DNA from: Rubripirellula sp.
Lineage (GTDB): Bacteria; Planctomycetota; Planctomycetia; Pirellulales; Pirellulaceae
DNA: 51,145 bases
Direction of reading: 5' to 3'
NCBI GenBank assembly: GCA_022425745.1
Contig: JAKMEW010000484.1
Coordinates: forward strand, 1 to 51,145
Positions within the stretch are counted from its first letter, which is position 1, and the number at the start of each line of letters is the position of its first letter. A program made the translations under genes and the position numbers. The notes under the pieces were generated by a model. It saw only the letters and a list, made by a program, of their open reading frames with translations. It was not told where the DNA came from and searched no databases. This document shows, one piece after another, positions 20,124 to 51,145 of the stretch.

Positions 20124-21368
20124 CTACCAACCCATCATATCGATCAAGGTGTCCGTGAGCGAACTGACCGGTGCGGTTGGCTCAGCGTAAGCCCAAAGAT
20201 TTCGCACAAGATCGGTCATCAGCATTCCTCCCAAACTCATCACACAGATGATGAGAACAAGCGTGACACATTGAAGAAGCGTAAAAGGAACCTCGTATAC
20301 CATACCAGCTCGAGGTGCCACTACTTGTCCGCCGAGGTCATCGGAGTCGTCTAGGGCGATTGCCTCATCGTCTGCATCCAACGCGAGTGCATCACCGGCG
20401 TCAGAAGCCTCTCCAAAGACGCCCTCGTCCAATGCATCGGCTGCTCCAAAGGCATCATCAGCGGCAAATTCAACCGCATCACCAATTGCCTCTGATTCTT
20501 CCACTTCGATAACTTGCGAACCGCTATCGAGATCGGTGTCCAACCCGATTCCCGAAGGTGAAAGTTGGAACTCTTCGTCTGCCTCAAAATCAACCGCTAG
20601 ATCACCTGACTTGGAACCGCTGTTACTACCGTCAGCTAGCTCAACATCAAGATCCAGCGACGAAATACTGCTCCCCGCAAGGTCTAGAGGCTCACTCTCA
20701 AGTGAAAGTCCGCTGTCGGATGGACTCATCAAGTTGATACCACTATCCCCAGCAATCGAAATATCACTGCCGGCACTACCCAACATTAGATCATCATCAT
20801 CAGCCGCAATAACTAAATCATCGTCCTCTGCGAGCGCATCATCTGCCTCGCCAGCTGAATCTACACCACTTTCTGCTAGCAAATCCGATCCAACACCATC
20901 CGGATCACCCGCCCCGAGCAGGTCCAACTCGCTGAGCACACCACTACTGGGACTACTGCCTGATGGAACGTCTGAGCCACTCAGCACATCAAGATCATCC
21001 ATCAATTCGAGACTGCTCGCTCCCGAACCTCCATCACTTGCCTGATCGCTTGAGAGATCAATTTCAGCTGAATCATGGGAAATGGCGGCATCCGCGAGCT
21101 TGAGCTCTGAAGAATCAATCTCTAACAGATCCTCGCCCTCACTCTCTAGCAACAAATCACCCGATTCCATGAGGTCATTGGATGGACCTGATGAATCGAG
21201 CTCATCAGCCAAATCATCAGCCAATTGTGCAATAGCATCCTCTGGGAATTTCCAGCTTGAGCCGTCCTTAAATCCTCTGACCTGCCCCTGACTTCGAAGA
21301 TCCACTAGGCGATCCGTTGAAATACCCAGTTTTTTGGCGGCTTCTTCAAGCGATAGGTAATTTGCCAT
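20124..21368 (-). CDS. Membrane-anchored helix-turn-helix protein with long Asp/Ser-rich region
   Basis: The protein has 414 residues from ATG 21368; the frame to 21422 adds an unlikely N-terminus. Residues 1-50 form an excisionase/MerR-type helix-turn-helix (YLSLEEAAKKLGIST, then a wing with GSSWKFPEDAI). About 300 residues follow that are almost only Asp, Ser, Glu, Gly, Ala and Leu, with repeated short pieces such as DSGINL, DSGLSL and GSDISI. One membrane span is at about 363-385, with a short tail outside. The DNA-binding-type domain should therefore sit in the cytoplasm, tethered to the membrane. Target and signal are unknown. The HTH could also bind protein instead of DNA. Confidence 0.75.
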   Translation of the reverse strand: MANYLSLEEAAKKLGISTDRLVDLRSQGQVRGFKDGSSWKFPEDAIAQLADDLADELDSSGPSNDLMESGDLLLESEGEDLLEIDSSELKLADAAISHDSAEIDLSSDQASDGGSGASSLELMDDLDVLSGSDVPSGSSPSSGVLSELDLLGAGDPDGVGSDLLAESGVDSAGEADDALAEDDDLVIAADDDDLMLGSAGSDISIAGDSGINLMSPSDSGLSLESEPLDLAGSSISSLDLDVELADGSNSGSKSGDLAVDFEADEEFQLSPSGIGLDTDLDSGSQVIEVEESEAIGDAVEFAADDAFGAADALDEGVFGEASDAGDALALDADDEAIALDDSDDLGGQVVAPRAGMVYEVPFTLLQCVTLVLIICVMSLGGMLMTDLVRNLWAYAEPTAPVSSLTDTLIDMMGW

Positions 21369-21489
21369 GTGATTTCTTACTAAGCGTTGAGCTGATTGAG
21401 ATTTGGAGTGATCAACACCCAAAATTCGATTGGGAAACTCAAAAACCCGGTGTTCCGAGAGATTGGAAGGTCAAAGCGAGCACAAATCG

Positions 21490-22343: not shown

Positions 22344-23942
22344 GTGTTCCGATCCGTCGAAACCGAGAGACTGAATGAAGAATCCAACAACATTCAGAAA
22401 AATCCAGATCAGGCCGAACAGAAGAAGCTGCAATACACAGCAAATTCGGAATCCACTTTCCTGACTGCTTTGTTTCTCGGATCTGCACTCTCTAGTGCCT
22501 TCCTGACGATAGCAAGCCTGTCTCCTGAAGGATCGGCTCTACAGCGTTATTTCTTAGGTCATCCAATTGCGATGACTGCAACAGTGCTGTTTTGGTTTGC
22601 TTTTTCAGTACTCATGCTCAAGTCGCTTTGGTTGATCAGCCAAAAACGACAATTGACCATCCTTCGAGACGACGACCTATCCCCGGAAATGTTGAATAGG
22701 TCGCCATCAGAGATTTGGCATAACGAAAATCACGCTGGATATGTGGCATCGGCATGGATAGAGACGCTGGAGCAACTACCATCAACACTTACCAAAAACC
22801 TGTTTATCCAACGTCTCGTTGAAGTCGTTCACCGCCAGAGCCAGCGTGGCTCTTCAAAACTCCTCGCGGATGACCTAAGAGAACTTTCTTATCGAGATGC
22901 TGATGCGGCACATGACTCGTACGGGTTGGTGCGGATCATCAGTTGGGCAATTCCGATGCTCGGCTTTCTAGGTACGGTGATTGGAATCACCCAAACCTTG
23001 GGTGGACTTGATTTTTCAAATGGCACGGCCGCCGTCGAGAACCTGAAAAGCGGTCTTTATGTCGCCTTCGATACGACCGCTGTCGGGCTAGTTCTTTCGG
23101 TTCTCGCAATCTTTATTCAGTTTCCAATCGAGCGTGCTGAACAAAAGTTCTTGGCAACAGTCGATTCGCGAGTGGGGAACCTTGTTTCATCGCATCTACC
23201 TAACTCTGATGAGGACAGAGACCAGTCGGAAGTAATCTCCTACCTAATCAATGGAGTGAAAACTGCAATCGCGGAATCAATGAATCAGCAAGTAAGCCTT
23301 TGGCGAAACACAATCTCCGAAGCAGATCAACACTGGAAGAACACTCAAACCAGTCATGCAGATCAAATCGGGAATGCGATTCAGTCTGCACTATCGCCAA
23401 TGATCATTCAGTTTTCTGACGGCGCAACCAAAGCATTCCGGGCGTTCAGCGAGGGACTAGAAGTTCACTCAAAAAACATGGGCGATACCTCAGAGAGGTT
23501 CGAAAAGAATACTCAGCAACTGTTCCTCGCTTCACATCAGGACATGGCTGAACAACTCTCCCAATCATTCTCGTTGAGCCATGAACGTCAGGAGCACATC
23601 TTCAACGAAGCTCTCAACCGCCTTCACGAACTCAACCAAGAATGGTCTTCCTCAGTTAACTCACTCCAATCTGCTACCAATGCAGCAGAAGCTACTCACC
23701 AGCGAGAACAAGAAAAGACAACGCGTGAGCACACCGAATCTCTTCTTCTGCTCCAAGAAACTTTGAATGCAAACCTAGCACAAATCAGCGAAAGCAATAA
23801 AGCAATCAAACATCAACTGTCCAATGACTTAAACGCCAACCTCACTGAAGCGATGCGTTACTTGGCGAGATCGGTTGATCAACTATCAAAACAACTCAGT
23901 GACGAACAGGATCGAAACCGTTCAGTGAGGCCAGCAGCATGA
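22344..23942 (+). CDS. MotA/TolQ/ExbB-like proton channel protein with long coiled-coil tail
   Basis: From GTG 22344 the product has 532 residues; the frame has no ATG near its start and TTG 22224 is the longest alternative. Four membrane spans are predicted at about 38-59, 74-98, 199-219 and 238-260. The last two carry the MotA/TolQ/ExbB signature: PMLGFLGTVIGITQTLGG with Thr211, and YVAFDTTAVGLVLSV with Thr244 and Thr245. Residues 285-532 form a long Gln/Glu-rich, probably coiled-coil tail. The family couples ion flow to force in the envelope. The two following genes encode single-span partners and overlap or nearly overlap, so all three should form one complex. A similar long-tailed channel is known in ZorA, but the other Zorya genes are absent. 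Confidence 0.85.
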   Translation: MFRSVETERLNEESNNIQKNPDQAEQKKLQYTANSESTFLTALFLGSALSSAFLTIASLSPEGSALQRYFLGHPIAMTATVLFWFAFSVLMLKSLWLISQKRQLTILRDDDLSPEMLNRSPSEIWHNENHAGYVASAWIETLEQLPSTLTKNLFIQRLVEVVHRQSQRGSSKLLADDLRELSYRDADAAHDSYGLVRIISWAIPMLGFLGTVIGITQTLGGLDFSNGTAAVENLKSGLYVAFDTTAVGLVLSVLAIFIQFPIERAEQKFLATVDSRVGNLVSSHLPNSDEDRDQSEVISYLINGVKTAIAESMNQQVSLWRNTISEADQHWKNTQTSHADQIGNAIQSALSPMIIQFSDGATKAFRAFSEGLEVHSKNMGDTSERFEKNTQQLFLASHQDMAEQLSQSFSLSHERQEHIFNEALNRLHELNQEWSSSVNSLQSATNAAEATHQREQEKTTREHTESLLLLQETLNANLAQISESNKAIKHQLSNDLNANLTEAMRYLARSVDQLSKQLSDEQDRNRSVRPAA

Positions 23943-26020
23943 GCAGGCGCAAGCGTGGACTCTCACCAACCTTGTTCCCGTTCCTCGCGGTCCTCGTGTG
24001 CACACTTGGTACCCTCATTCTGCTTCTCGCGCTGGTGTCGCAGAACGCAACTGCAAATGTCTCGACAACAAGTCCCCCGAACAGTGCCCAAGAAAATCCA
24101 GCATCACTGACTCAATCGCAGGCTGATCAGCTAATACGCGAAGAATCTTTCAAGCTCGGTGAACTCATTGCAGCGAGAGAATTGCAGACGAAAGATCTCG
24201 AGCAAACACGAGACCAGAGAACCCATCTGGAAAATCACATCCAGAAAATCAATGACAGAATCAACTATCTCAAAGCTGAAATCGACACAGCCACCAATCA
24301 AGAACCTCAGCCGGAAATTAAAGACCAACAACTAGCCAGTGCGATCGATCATTCAAATTCTCTAGCAGAGACCCTCAAGAAGCTAAAAAACGACAGCCAG
24401 AACACGACACCAAAGCTGGTCATCGTTCCACATCAGGGACCCAACGGCACTGACCGACGCGCCATCTATCTGGAATGCAAACCGGATGGGTTAACAATCT
24501 GGCCGGAAGGATCAACCATCACCCTTGATCAACTCATGCGTTCGAATGACACCGGCAATCCGCTCGACGCCGCTCTCCGAACCATTCGACTTCATGCACT
24601 GCAAGTCTACGAAGACGAGAATGCGCCCTACCCTCTTTTGATTGTCCGGCCAAATGGAATTGAGTGTTACGCCGCAGCTCGTCGTTGTATGGAGTCATGG
24701 GATGATCAATTTGGTTACGAACTAATCGAAAGCAGCGTTGAACTGGCGTTCCCACCCCGAGACGAAATACTTGGTCAAAAAGTGGAAAAATCAATCGCTG
24801 CTGCAATCCAATTGCAGCGACACCATGTTGCTGGATCAAGTGAAACACCAAATGATCGACGACGACACAGAACGGCTAACACCAAGAACCTACCCACGCT
24901 CTCGGCTGCCGCAATGGAACGATCCAGTCGTGCCAATGGCTATCGTCAATTGAGCGATGCACCATACGCTAACTCCCAGTTCCAACCAACATCCGATGCA
25001 TCCAACTCAGAAGCCCGGGGGCACTACGCGGATCGTAACGATCCGATCACCCCCAGCAACATCTCTTACCCACCTAAACCGCCAGCAAAGCCTTCTGATT
25101 CCATAACTAACACTAATGATCTAAGGCAGCGTCCGAACATCTCGAAGCGTCCAAGCTACACCACACCATTGCCTGAAGTGTTCAACGACACAGATCAGGA
25201 CATCACATCGCATCCAAAAACAACCACCCCGAATTCATTGCCGGAAGGGAGCGTCAATGAATCATCAACCAACAACCCGTATCCCAAACAATCTGCAACC
25301 CCATCGCCAATCTCACAATTAGGAATCACTAATAGCACCCAGAGCTCGACAACCAATGAGAACCAGAACAACCCCAACACGGAACAAACGACCGGCAGCG
25401 ATTTGGGAAGTAGTGAGACGACACATGGGTCAAAAGCATCCCAAACTTACACCTCAAAAGACGGAACACCACAGGTAATAACTAGGGATAAAGGCGGATC
25501 CGCTACGTATGCTCCCTCGCTATCACAGGGACAAATGAACGGCTCTTCGTCGTCGATTGGATCCGCGATGGAACTCCCAAACCAAGAACTTGACGAAAGA
25601 ATGCCGGAACTGGCAATCCAACCTCAAGCTACCGTACCGCCTTCGATCCCCAAAAAACTCTTGAGTAAAATCGGAAGCAACTGGGCAATACCACCTTCTG
25701 CAGCTCGAATAAGAGGGACCGCGATCGTGCGCAAACTACGGGTCGAGGCACACGAAAATCGCTTCATTCTCCTACCCAGTAGACAAGTCAGCTCCATTGA
25801 AATTTTTTCCTTTTTCGATGGCAACATTGACCGAGCATCGCTGCAACTTGCCACTGCAATTCATGACCGTATCATGCTTTGGGGACCTGCTTTGCCGGGA
25901 GGCAGATGGCAACCGACCATAGAAGTTTTGGTGGAATCAAATGCAGAAGAGGCATTTTCAATGCTGCAGCGAAACTTCGCCCGGAGCGGCCTTTATCTCG
26001 AGCAAGCCGCATCAAAATGA
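23939..26020 (+). CDS. Single-span ExbD/MotB-like partner lacking the membrane Asp, low-complexity middle
   Basis: This is a 693-residue protein whose ATG overlaps the stop of the channel gene (ATGA). One membrane span lies at about 11-33 in FPFLAVLVCTLGTLILLLAL. Aligned with the next protein, the position of the ion-carrying Asp is Ala. A coiled coil covers about 65-100. A first folded domain lies at about 155-290 (with RAIYLECKPDGLTIWPEGS). A 270-residue Ser/Thr/Asn/Pro-rich stretch follows, and a second conserved-looking domain occupies the last 120 residues. The family is not known to me. Topology (short cytoplasmic start, long extracytoplasmic part) matches ExbD and MotB. It is translationally coupled to both neighbours. 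Confidence 0.8.
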   Translation: MSRRKRGLSPTLFPFLAVLVCTLGTLILLLALVSQNATANVSTTSPPNSAQENPASLTQSQADQLIREESFKLGELIAARELQTKDLEQTRDQRTHLENHIQKINDRINYLKAEIDTATNQEPQPEIKDQQLASAIDHSNSLAETLKKLKNDSQNTTPKLVIVPHQGPNGTDRRAIYLECKPDGLTIWPEGSTITLDQLMRSNDTGNPLDAALRTIRLHALQVYEDENAPYPLLIVRPNGIECYAAARRCMESWDDQFGYELIESSVELAFPPRDEILGQKVEKSIAAAIQLQRHHVAGSSETPNDRRRHRTANTKNLPTLSAAAMERSSRANGYRQLSDAPYANSQFQPTSDASNSEARGHYADRNDPITPSNISYPPKPPAKPSDSITNTNDLRQRPNISKRPSYTTPLPEVFNDTDQDITSHPKTTTPNSLPEGSVNESSTNNPYPKQSATPSPISQLGITNSTQSSTTNENQNNPNTEQTTGSDLGSSETTHGSKASQTYTSKDGTPQVITRDKGGSATYAPSLSQGQMNGSSSSIGSAMELPNQELDERMPELAIQPQATVPPSIPKKLLSKIGSNWAIPPSAARIRGTAIVRKLRVEAHENRFILLPSRQVSSIEIFSFFDGNIDRASLQLATAIHDRIMLWGPALPGGRWQPTIEVLVESNAEEAFSMLQRNFARSGLYLEQAASK

Positions 26021-27051
26021 ACATCGAACGAAAAAAGCGTCAGACCGTTGAATTGGGATACGATTCTTTTCTAGATATCGTTGCGAATCTTGTCGGTATT
26101 TTAATCATCCTCGTGGTAGTTCTTGGTGCTCAGTCATCTTCAAGAATAGAAGAGATCAAGCAACAAACCGATGCAATCAACACATCTCGCACCGCAAGCC
26201 CCGACCTCATAGAGCGGTTAAATGACCAAGCGAGACGTTCATCAGCAGCTCAACAAGACTCAGATCGCCTCGAGCAGCTTATTGTTAAACAGCAACAAAT
26301 CGTGAACCAACGAGTGCGTGAGCGTGATTTGCTGTTGGATTTACTGAATCAAGCTGAAGCAACCTGGAAAGAGGCTAAAACAAGCTTCGATGATAAACGC
26401 GTAGCTAATGCAGAGCGTCTCTCTGATTACCAAGAAGAACTCAATCGCATCGCGCAACTCGAGAGAGAGATTGAGAGACTATCAAATCAACCTCAAACAG
26501 TCACCGAATTACAGCATCTCCCTACTCCGATGGCAAAGACAGTCTTTGGTGATGAAATTCATTTCAGATTGAAAGGAAACAATCTCTCTGTCGTGCCTGT
26601 TGAACAATTACTCGCCGAAATAAAAAACAACTTTGAACGTATTTCTTTTGGATCTAAAGAGGGCAAACAGGAATCCGCGGTGGGCCCCTTACGAGGCTAC
26701 ATCGCAAGATATGAGCTAGAAAAAACGAAAGGTACGATCAATCGAGGAGGACAGATCCAAACTGCTACGAGAATCCAACTATTGAATCTCAGTATCGAAC
26801 CACTTCAGGAACCCTACGGAACCCCGTTTGCCCACATATCTAAGCCGGGGGAACTTCTCGATGTTGAACTTGCCGGAAGAGACCCTGCCTCAACCACAAT
26901 CACAGTGTGGGTTTACCCTGACAGCTTCCGAGCCTTCCGATCATTGAAAGAAATTCTTTATCAAAAAGGCTTCGCAACCGCTGCCCGGCCTCTTCCAATG
27001 GAGCATGTCATTAGTGGTGGCCCTGACGGCACGCGTTCTCAAGCCCAATAA
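26017..27051 (+). CDS. Single-span ExbD/MotB-like partner with the membrane Asp
   Basis: The product has 344 residues from ATG 26017, which overlaps the previous stop by four bases (ATGA); the open frame back to 25879 is inside the upstream gene. The N-terminus carries DSFLDIVANLVGILIILVVV at 16-35. Asp20 lies at the mouth of the span where ExbD and MotB have their proton-binding Asp. A coiled coil follows (about 42-165, with LEREIERLSNQ), then a C-terminal domain of about 180 residues without a peptidoglycan-binding OmpA motif that I can recognise. Together with the two upstream genes it should build an ion-driven stator-like complex. The force target is unknown. Confidence 0.8.
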   Translation: MNIERKKRQTVELGYDSFLDIVANLVGILIILVVVLGAQSSSRIEEIKQQTDAINTSRTASPDLIERLNDQARRSSAAQQDSDRLEQLIVKQQQIVNQRVRERDLLLDLLNQAEATWKEAKTSFDDKRVANAERLSDYQEELNRIAQLEREIERLSNQPQTVTELQHLPTPMAKTVFGDEIHFRLKGNNLSVVPVEQLLAEIKNNFERISFGSKEGKQESAVGPLRGYIARYELEKTKGTINRGGQIQTATRIQLLNLSIEPLQEPYGTPFAHISKPGELLDVELAGRDPASTTITVWVYPDSFRAFRSLKEILYQKGFATAARPLPMEHVISGGPDGTRSQAQ

Positions 27052-50745: not shown

Positions 50746-51145
50746 TTAATCAAATTCCTCAACTTGCGTCACCTCCAACTGCGCATAACCCGCAATTGTT
50801 CCCGCATCCATCGCATCCACGAGTGACTTCAATTTTGCCATCTCGTGTACCTTAACAACCAACCTCATCCCATCACTATTTCCAGCAATCGCTTCGCGAA
50901 GAGCTGAGATCAAATTCTGCTTTCCGGGTGTTTCTCTTTCCCACTCAGGTGCCATTACAAGAAACGAGCCAAACTCATCTACCTGCAACTCAACCATATC
51001 CAACTCTTCAACCTCTTCCTCCTGCACGCTTGTACTCGGAGCATCGGTCTGCTGCCTTGGCATCTCAATTGACTTCTGCAAACTGAACGCAGCCGTCACC
51101 ATGAAGAAAATCAACAGCAAGAAGGTGACGTCAACCATCGGCGTC
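50746..51145 (-). CDS. ExbD/TolR-family protein (N-terminus beyond window)
   Basis: This is the C-terminal 133 residues of an ExbD/TolR-type proton-channel subunit; its beginning lies past the right edge. The membrane span TPMVDVTFLLLIFFMVTAAF holds the conserved proton-carrying Asp of the family, four residues into the read part. A short acidic linker (SVQEEEVEELD) and a periplasmic domain follow, ending at TAA 50746. An ExbB partner is expected upstream, outside the window. It is followed after 91 bases by the propeller gene. The family uses the proton gradient to drive envelope partners, which here would be the exported proteins of this operon. Confidence 0.9.
   Translation of the reverse strand, partial: TPMVDVTFLLLIFFMVTAAFSLQKSIEMPRQQTDAPSTSVQEEEVEELDMVELQVDEFGSFLVMAPEWERETPGKQNLISALREAIAGNSDGMRLVVKVHEMAKLKSLVDAMDAGTIAGYAQLEVTQVEEFD

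Follow-up and report, generated by a model that had tools for sequence, protein, structure and literature searches.

A three-gene operon, spread within one bacterial class, appears to encode a proton-driven membrane motor with two differing axle subunits. We give a probability of about 60% to the reading that its products, A, B and C, form a proton-driven 5:1:1 relative of the ExbBD and MotAB motors, in which C would be the proton partner and B a passive half of the axle with a long arm. The operon lies in a window of 51,145 nucleotides, the whole stretch of Rubripirellula DNA analysed here (Table 1). A preliminary description of this DNA had seen an ExbB-like three-gene set with two different single-span partners, the Asp being on the second and not the first, and this holds in the window genome and in most of the relatives read.

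Table 1. Positions of the A, B and C genes and of their main features in the window
Feature	Position	Strand	Description
Gene A	22344-23942	+	Start GTG, stop TGA; MotA/TolQ/ExbB-type channel subunit, 532 aa, long coiled-coil-like C-terminal tail
A motif GFLGTVIG	22962-22985	+	Last G is His in the other wheel clade
A Asp243 in span motif AFDTTA	23070-23072	+	Membrane Asp, invariant in 20/20
Gene B	23939-26020	+	Start ATG; first partner, 693 aa, one span, coiled coil, globular domain 1, long linker, globular domain 2
B span	23972-24067	+	Ala17 where C has Asp
B domain 1	24413-24838	+	AlphaFold2 model; common to the short B of the sister triad (profile comparison 96.7%)
B linker, aa 309-568	24863-25642	+	Presumably disordered (pLDDT <50); length varies among relatives
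B domain 2	25721-26005	+	AlphaFold2 model: strand-strand-strand-helix-strand-helix-strand; fold matches generic
Gene C	26017-27051	+	Start ATG; second partner, 344 aa, one span, long coiled coil, alpha/beta domain
C Asp20	26074-26076	+	Presumed proton site; Asp in 169/169 distinct loci with a readable span
C coiled coil, aa 62-156	26200-26484	+	AlphaFold2 model

The operon, its products and their distribution

The product of A, hereafter the wheel, matches the Pfam family MotA_ExbB (PF01618, E 1.2e-12 in the window), as do all 20 members of the A alignment. Its closest solved relatives by sequence are 8VVN (5.1e-9) and 8VVI (2e-7), with the match extending into the tail; the part of the source available to us assigns them to ZorA of Zorya types I and II (PMC11890865). 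A scores far below the cut-off of the NCBIfam model for ZorA (24.4 bits against 700), and its best PADLOC match has an E of 8.9e-11, PADLOC showing no cut-off. The two partners in the window have no Pfam family above its cut-off, PF02472 (ExbD) is absent from their full Pfam lists at E up to 1, and a vWA domain was not found in either by Pfam; nor is PF02472 among the 25 families listed (of 92 and 64) for alignments A1 and A2, of 20 members each. The AlphaFold2 models of B and C likewise gave no PDB match below 0.001 by Foldseek. The B model, with a mean pLDDT of 65, has clear segments, namely a span helix (aa 15-43), a coiled coil (59-155), a domain (159-300) and a second domain (595-689), for which the VIA-align rows are generic and TolR 5BY4 appears at rank 50 (E 0.67) among generic matches. 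The C model (pLDDT 85.7) comprises a span helix (aa 15-53), the coiled coil and an alpha/beta domain. VIA-align ranks 8PEK, the periplasmic domain of ExbD, first for it (Z 6.9, with the tool's caution line at 8; 87 residues, rmsd 2.8), which is suggestive of an ExbD-like periplasmic fold on the modelled C. A recognisable relationship between domain 2 of B and the end domain of C is unsupported (1.4% in profile comparison). The large variable spacer attributed to the first partner was confirmed: between two conserved blocks of B it measures 237-645 aa, with a median of 361, in 84 loci.

The ATGA overlaps described at both junctions are indeed present in the window (A/B at 23939-23942, B/C at 26017-26020). 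The A/B overlap of 4 nt is not general, being found in only 4 of 19 relatives; in the remaining 15 the nearest B start lies 40-172 nt behind A. The gene order itself, for which a search of planctomycete genomes had been proposed, recurs: long B and C lie side by side with A upstream on the same strand in 20 of 294 genomes of the phylum, the window genome included, and all 20 genomes in this search that hold long B and C have the order A-B-C on one strand. A profile of C matches 335 of the 397 genomes of the class that were searched, and part of the matching loci were fetched. Moreover, among the best 80 of at least 400 confirmed stretches from the genome collection, all 80 loci are in planctomycete-titled records. 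Residues were counted in 169 of 182 distinct loci, which were picked by likeness to C and include many close relatives, so that locus counts are not counts of events. Dropped were L115, L160 and L171 (C cut or without a readable span), L308 (missed by the pattern, reading FLD) and nine loci of family f108 (L303, L305, L307, L310-L314, L316), all nine of that family that were opened, in which the A-B-C set was not recognised; these match the outer domain of C and have no recognised B or C span.

Clustering of the neighbours at the 182 loci (181 plus the window) yielded no general conserved neighbour as a functional clue, the largest cluster being found at 36 of the 182 and on the opposite strand. 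In the window, the divergent gene upstream (20124-21422, minus strand) encodes an HTH_17 domain and a long acidic stretch, and relatives of it lie upstream in 20 loci.

The two spans and the residue at the Asp position

The span of B reads SPTLFPFLAVLVCTLGTLILLL (also given as LFPFLAVLVCTLGTLILLL), with FLA and Ala17 (GCG, 23987-23989), and that of C reads GYDSFLDIVANLVGILIILVVV (also given as DSFLDIVANLVGILIILVVV), with FLD and Asp20 (GAT). Profile comparison pairs the two at 97.7% (96.7% in an initial run), with FLA lying over FLD, and each reaches at most 1.7% against the four A spans. This yardstick calls for caution: the span of the short B in the sister triad gave 55.8% with one A span and, in different runs, 50 or 91% with C. 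Judged from these profiles, a chance pairing of the B and C spans is unlikely. Around Asp20 (window 26062-26088), C has a further Asp16 one helix turn ahead, kept in 167 of 169 loci; four residues past Asp20 it has Asn in 169/169, where B has Cys in 143/150.

In the first 20 triads C has Asp at this position in all 20, and B has Ala in 19 and Thr in one. Across the 151 loci in which B could be read (it was unread in 18 of 169), the residue is Ala in 131, Asp in 14, Thr in 4 and Ser in 2; adding L380 and L385 brings B-Asp to 16 of 153. The conservation of the Asp/Ala pair, raised as a check in the preliminary description, is complete for the C Asp, whereas Ala is kept in 131 of 151 B proteins. 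The 14 loci with B-Asp, which are scattered, are homologues of the kind named there as refuting its interpretation, and they make Ala the usual state of B, not a fixed one. Ala is therefore neither unique to this genome, being the common B state, nor is it true that B never has Asp. As a control within the same genome, all eight ordinary ExbD places (PF02472) carry the Asp (TPMIDV, TPLIDV, TSMIDI, TPMVDV and similar), including both members of the two tandem exbD pairs among them. An ordinary ExbD gene with TPMVDV lies at the window end (50767-51144, minus strand).

In L178 (4083-7001) the body of B is joined to a span of C type, SFLDVLANMVG. The C profile (positions 1-153 and 1-154) also matches inside ORFs of 879 and 893 aa, at G375:C136:143292-143750 and G669:C332:44748-45203, a hint from the profile that these ORFs too may combine a C-type span with a B body.

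In a sister triad all 11 aligned short B proteins (~270 aa) read Ser where C has its Asp, and C has that Asp wherever its span was read. The sister-triad loci are L087-L104 and L388-L398; in some of the genomes C lies apart from A and B, and several of the A proteins start with a CxxC motif resembling a zinc ribbon.

Wheel type and the B residue

B-Asp loci mostly have an A reading GTVxHF and AFNTT (H-type wheel), whereas B non-Asp loci mostly have GTVxGI and, mostly, AFDTT. Among 150 loci, 129 combine a non-H wheel with B non-Asp and 15 an H wheel with B-Asp, against five with an H wheel and B non-Asp and one with a non-H wheel and B-Asp. On the trees, which are quick ones with many open forks, B-Asp needs 8-10 changes on the C tree and 8 on the B tree, 6 being forced by starred branches in each. 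In the A tree a single starred branch sets the H-type wheels (12 rows) apart from the rest; on the C tree they require five wheel changes, and every H-type A in or beside the operon goes with B-Asp. One wheel clade is therefore combined with several separate B/C lineages, most of them B-Asp. Of six independent pairs on starred branches, a small number, 5.6 run in the same direction and 0 in the opposite one (p 0.031, range 0.031-0.0625); there had been 5 pairs (p 0.0625-0.125) before wheels were assigned at seven loci and two loci were added. The seven (L125, L130, L139, L176, L178, L213, L220) have no operon A and received their wheels from genome searches, matched by contig number and coordinates; the two additions, L380 and L385, both B-Asp, came through the search for H-type wheels.

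A prediction set beforehand was that B-Asp operons without A would have an H-type A elsewhere in the genome, and both L178 and L213 do. The converse prediction, of a usual wheel elsewhere in the genome for Ala-B operons without A, did not hold: in G425, G453 and G409 the only long-system wheel found was of H type. Ala-B occurs with an H wheel at L125, L130, L139, L176 and L220, and B-Asp with a non-H wheel at L121, so the wheel type does not strictly set the B residue. Overall, the association of the B residue with the type of A is strong but not strict. Since the two tend to change together, the B span would lie against the wheel, which bears by a different path on the second refuting condition of the preliminary description, spans that do not enter the channel pentamer; this coupling and the homology of the spans suggest that the spans of B and C may both sit in the A ring.

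Close relatives of the H wheel (>380 bits) are found in 29 of 397 genomes of the class. Twenty stretches opened around them comprise 19 with GTVxHF and one (L382) with GTVxYF; motif patterns had missed the wheels of L378, L379 and L382, and a profile search found all three. In 18 of these stretches (3-18 kb; L364, L369-L379, L381-L384, L386, L387) no B or C was recognised within the stretch, and L380 and L385 have both. Some of the genomes also score for the usual wheel, and G445, G468, G634 and G640 hold both kinds by score. The usual wheel elsewhere was sought in 24 of the genomes; those in which an H-like wheel occurs without the usual one, at least seven (among them G375, G669, G383, G533, G488, G462 and G528), fall outside the 150 loci. 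An H-like wheel without partners is perhaps an exchangeable second wheel.

The proposed motor, its alternatives and known systems

In models of ExbBD, TolQR and MotAB, two Asps take turns while the axle rotates inside a ring of five-fold symmetry, and in ExbB-ExbD and TolQ-TolR the partners are identical, each with the Asp, and work with TonB or TolA. In the motor proposed here, a ring of presumably five A subunits would enclose one span of B and one of C, giving 5:1:1. C, whose Asp alone among these sites is never missing in the loci read, would carry the proton, and B would be the passive half of the axle in most lineages. The long linker and outer domain of B would extend through the envelope, leaving the proton donor on one protein and the arm on another. 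With the C Asp alone, each turn of the ring would take ~5 protons, not 10. At loci with the second wheel clade (GTVxHF, AFNTT) in place of the usual wheel, B mostly carries a second Asp. The preliminary description had spoken of a possible 'one-stroke' motor, for which nothing found gives support; one Asp could still pass five identical A sites per turn. It is a tentative proposal, to which we give slightly less than even odds, that this is a naturally asymmetric rotary motor: two unlike axle halves would share a single wheel, one half bearing the only obligatory proton site and the other a further site that is gained or lost when the wheel subunit is exchanged. As for its role in the envelope, our guess is a force transducer without a separate TonB or TolA protein.

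The wheel has a conserved membrane Asp of its own (AFDTT), absent from the preliminary description, and the proton path could run through a ring of these residues, B-Ala being what such a wheel needs and the C Asp acting together with the five ring Asps. The residue is Asp in 124 of the 129 loci with B non-Asp in which the position is aligned, Asn (AFNTT) in 11 of the 12 B-Asp loci with A in or beside the operon, and F, V, V, R and T in five ordinary ExbB of the same genome. However, five loci (L223, L260, L323, L324, L326) have neither the wheel Asp nor a B Asp, and thus the former is no simple replacement for the latter; L121 has both, and a distant triad (L097, 6754-9364; L100, 3941-7795) has Asp in both partners (FAFQDI or LFVFQDI, LLLDTI) with a wheel Glu (AFETT). 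We regard this path as rather unlikely.

The motor could also be A5C2, with a homodimer of C as the axle and B as an arm of the TonB/TolA kind, its span packed against the outside of the ring. This would fit the presence of Asp in every locus read on C alone and the longer reach of B, and a third, peripheral subunit of this sort is part of the Ton and Tol complexes, according to the available part of PMC12204202. It is nevertheless unlikely, given that the B span is homologous to that of C, that Asp occurs at exactly the aligned position of B in scattered lineages, that one B (L178) has a C-type span and that the B residue is associated with the wheel type. Furthermore, the B span has no His in the window, and among 150 loci His is not one of the four commonest residues at any span position; B is thus without the motor-binding motif SxHxLxS reported in the same portion of that source.

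Two alternative homodimeric motors might instead share one wheel, A5C2 being active and A5B2 inactive or regulatory, the latter becoming active in Asp-B lineages. Each B-Asp lineage would then have two competent axles, and the existence of wheel genes without neighbouring partners makes an exchange of subunits plausible; but in the loci read the B and C genes adjoin within a single operon, and an axle unable to take a proton would have to persist across a class, which makes this reading improbable. That B is a decaying subunit and Ala a loss of function agrees with the variation of the residue (Ala, Thr, Ser, Asp) and is hardly credible, as the rest of the span (FPFL, Cys, Gly) is among the best-conserved parts of B and the state is kept across many lineages.

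A-B-C, in our preferred reading a 5:1:1 motor, resembles ExbB-ExbD and TolQ-TolR in its PF01618 wheel, in a single-span partner with a mid-span Asp and possibly in an ExbD-like periplasmic domain on C. It differs from them in that B and C are not identical and the Asp is usually on C alone. ZorA-ZorB of Zorya shares with A the long tail behind the channel spans, but has one partner instead of two; it is described as a 5:2 motor with the Asp on ZorB in the accessible part of PMC11890865. Mixed partner pairs are already known, and the statement that the subunits of known complexes are identical was in this respect incomplete. The AglR-AglQ-AglS gliding motor of Myxococcus xanthus likewise combines a single MotA-like gene with those of two distinct single-span partners in the same cluster, as far as the consulted sections of PMC3169522 and PMC9389320 go; both AglQ and AglS have the conserved Asp, with homo- or heterodimer unknown (PMC9389320, in part), and the mixed pair also appears in the available text of PMC9120999. 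By the Pfam assignments in these sections, AglQ and AglS belong to the ExbD/TolR family, whereas neither B nor C matches that family and usually only one of the two has the Asp; Asp on both partners is absent in the window and in 137 of 151 loci. The vWA transpore proteins form heterologous pairs, and the PVC group has heterologous tolR-like pairs, with arm and axle in one protein; unlike the usual B, each vWA partner is described with an Asp, one per monomer, in the part of PMC12204202 seen. A partner without the Asp was not found in the available portions of the open-access literature searched, preprints and subscription papers being outside that search.

If A-B-C is such an asymmetric motor, it would show that a motor of the 5:2 type can work with a single Asp on its axle, and that evolution can reset how many proton sites there are. 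A conserved one-Asp motor, together with its two-Asp relatives, would provide a natural test of whether two Asps are needed, what determines the number of protons per turn and whether the jobs of the axle can be divided between two proteins. Moreover, the repeated link between wheel type and B residue points to positions of interest in any motor of the family.
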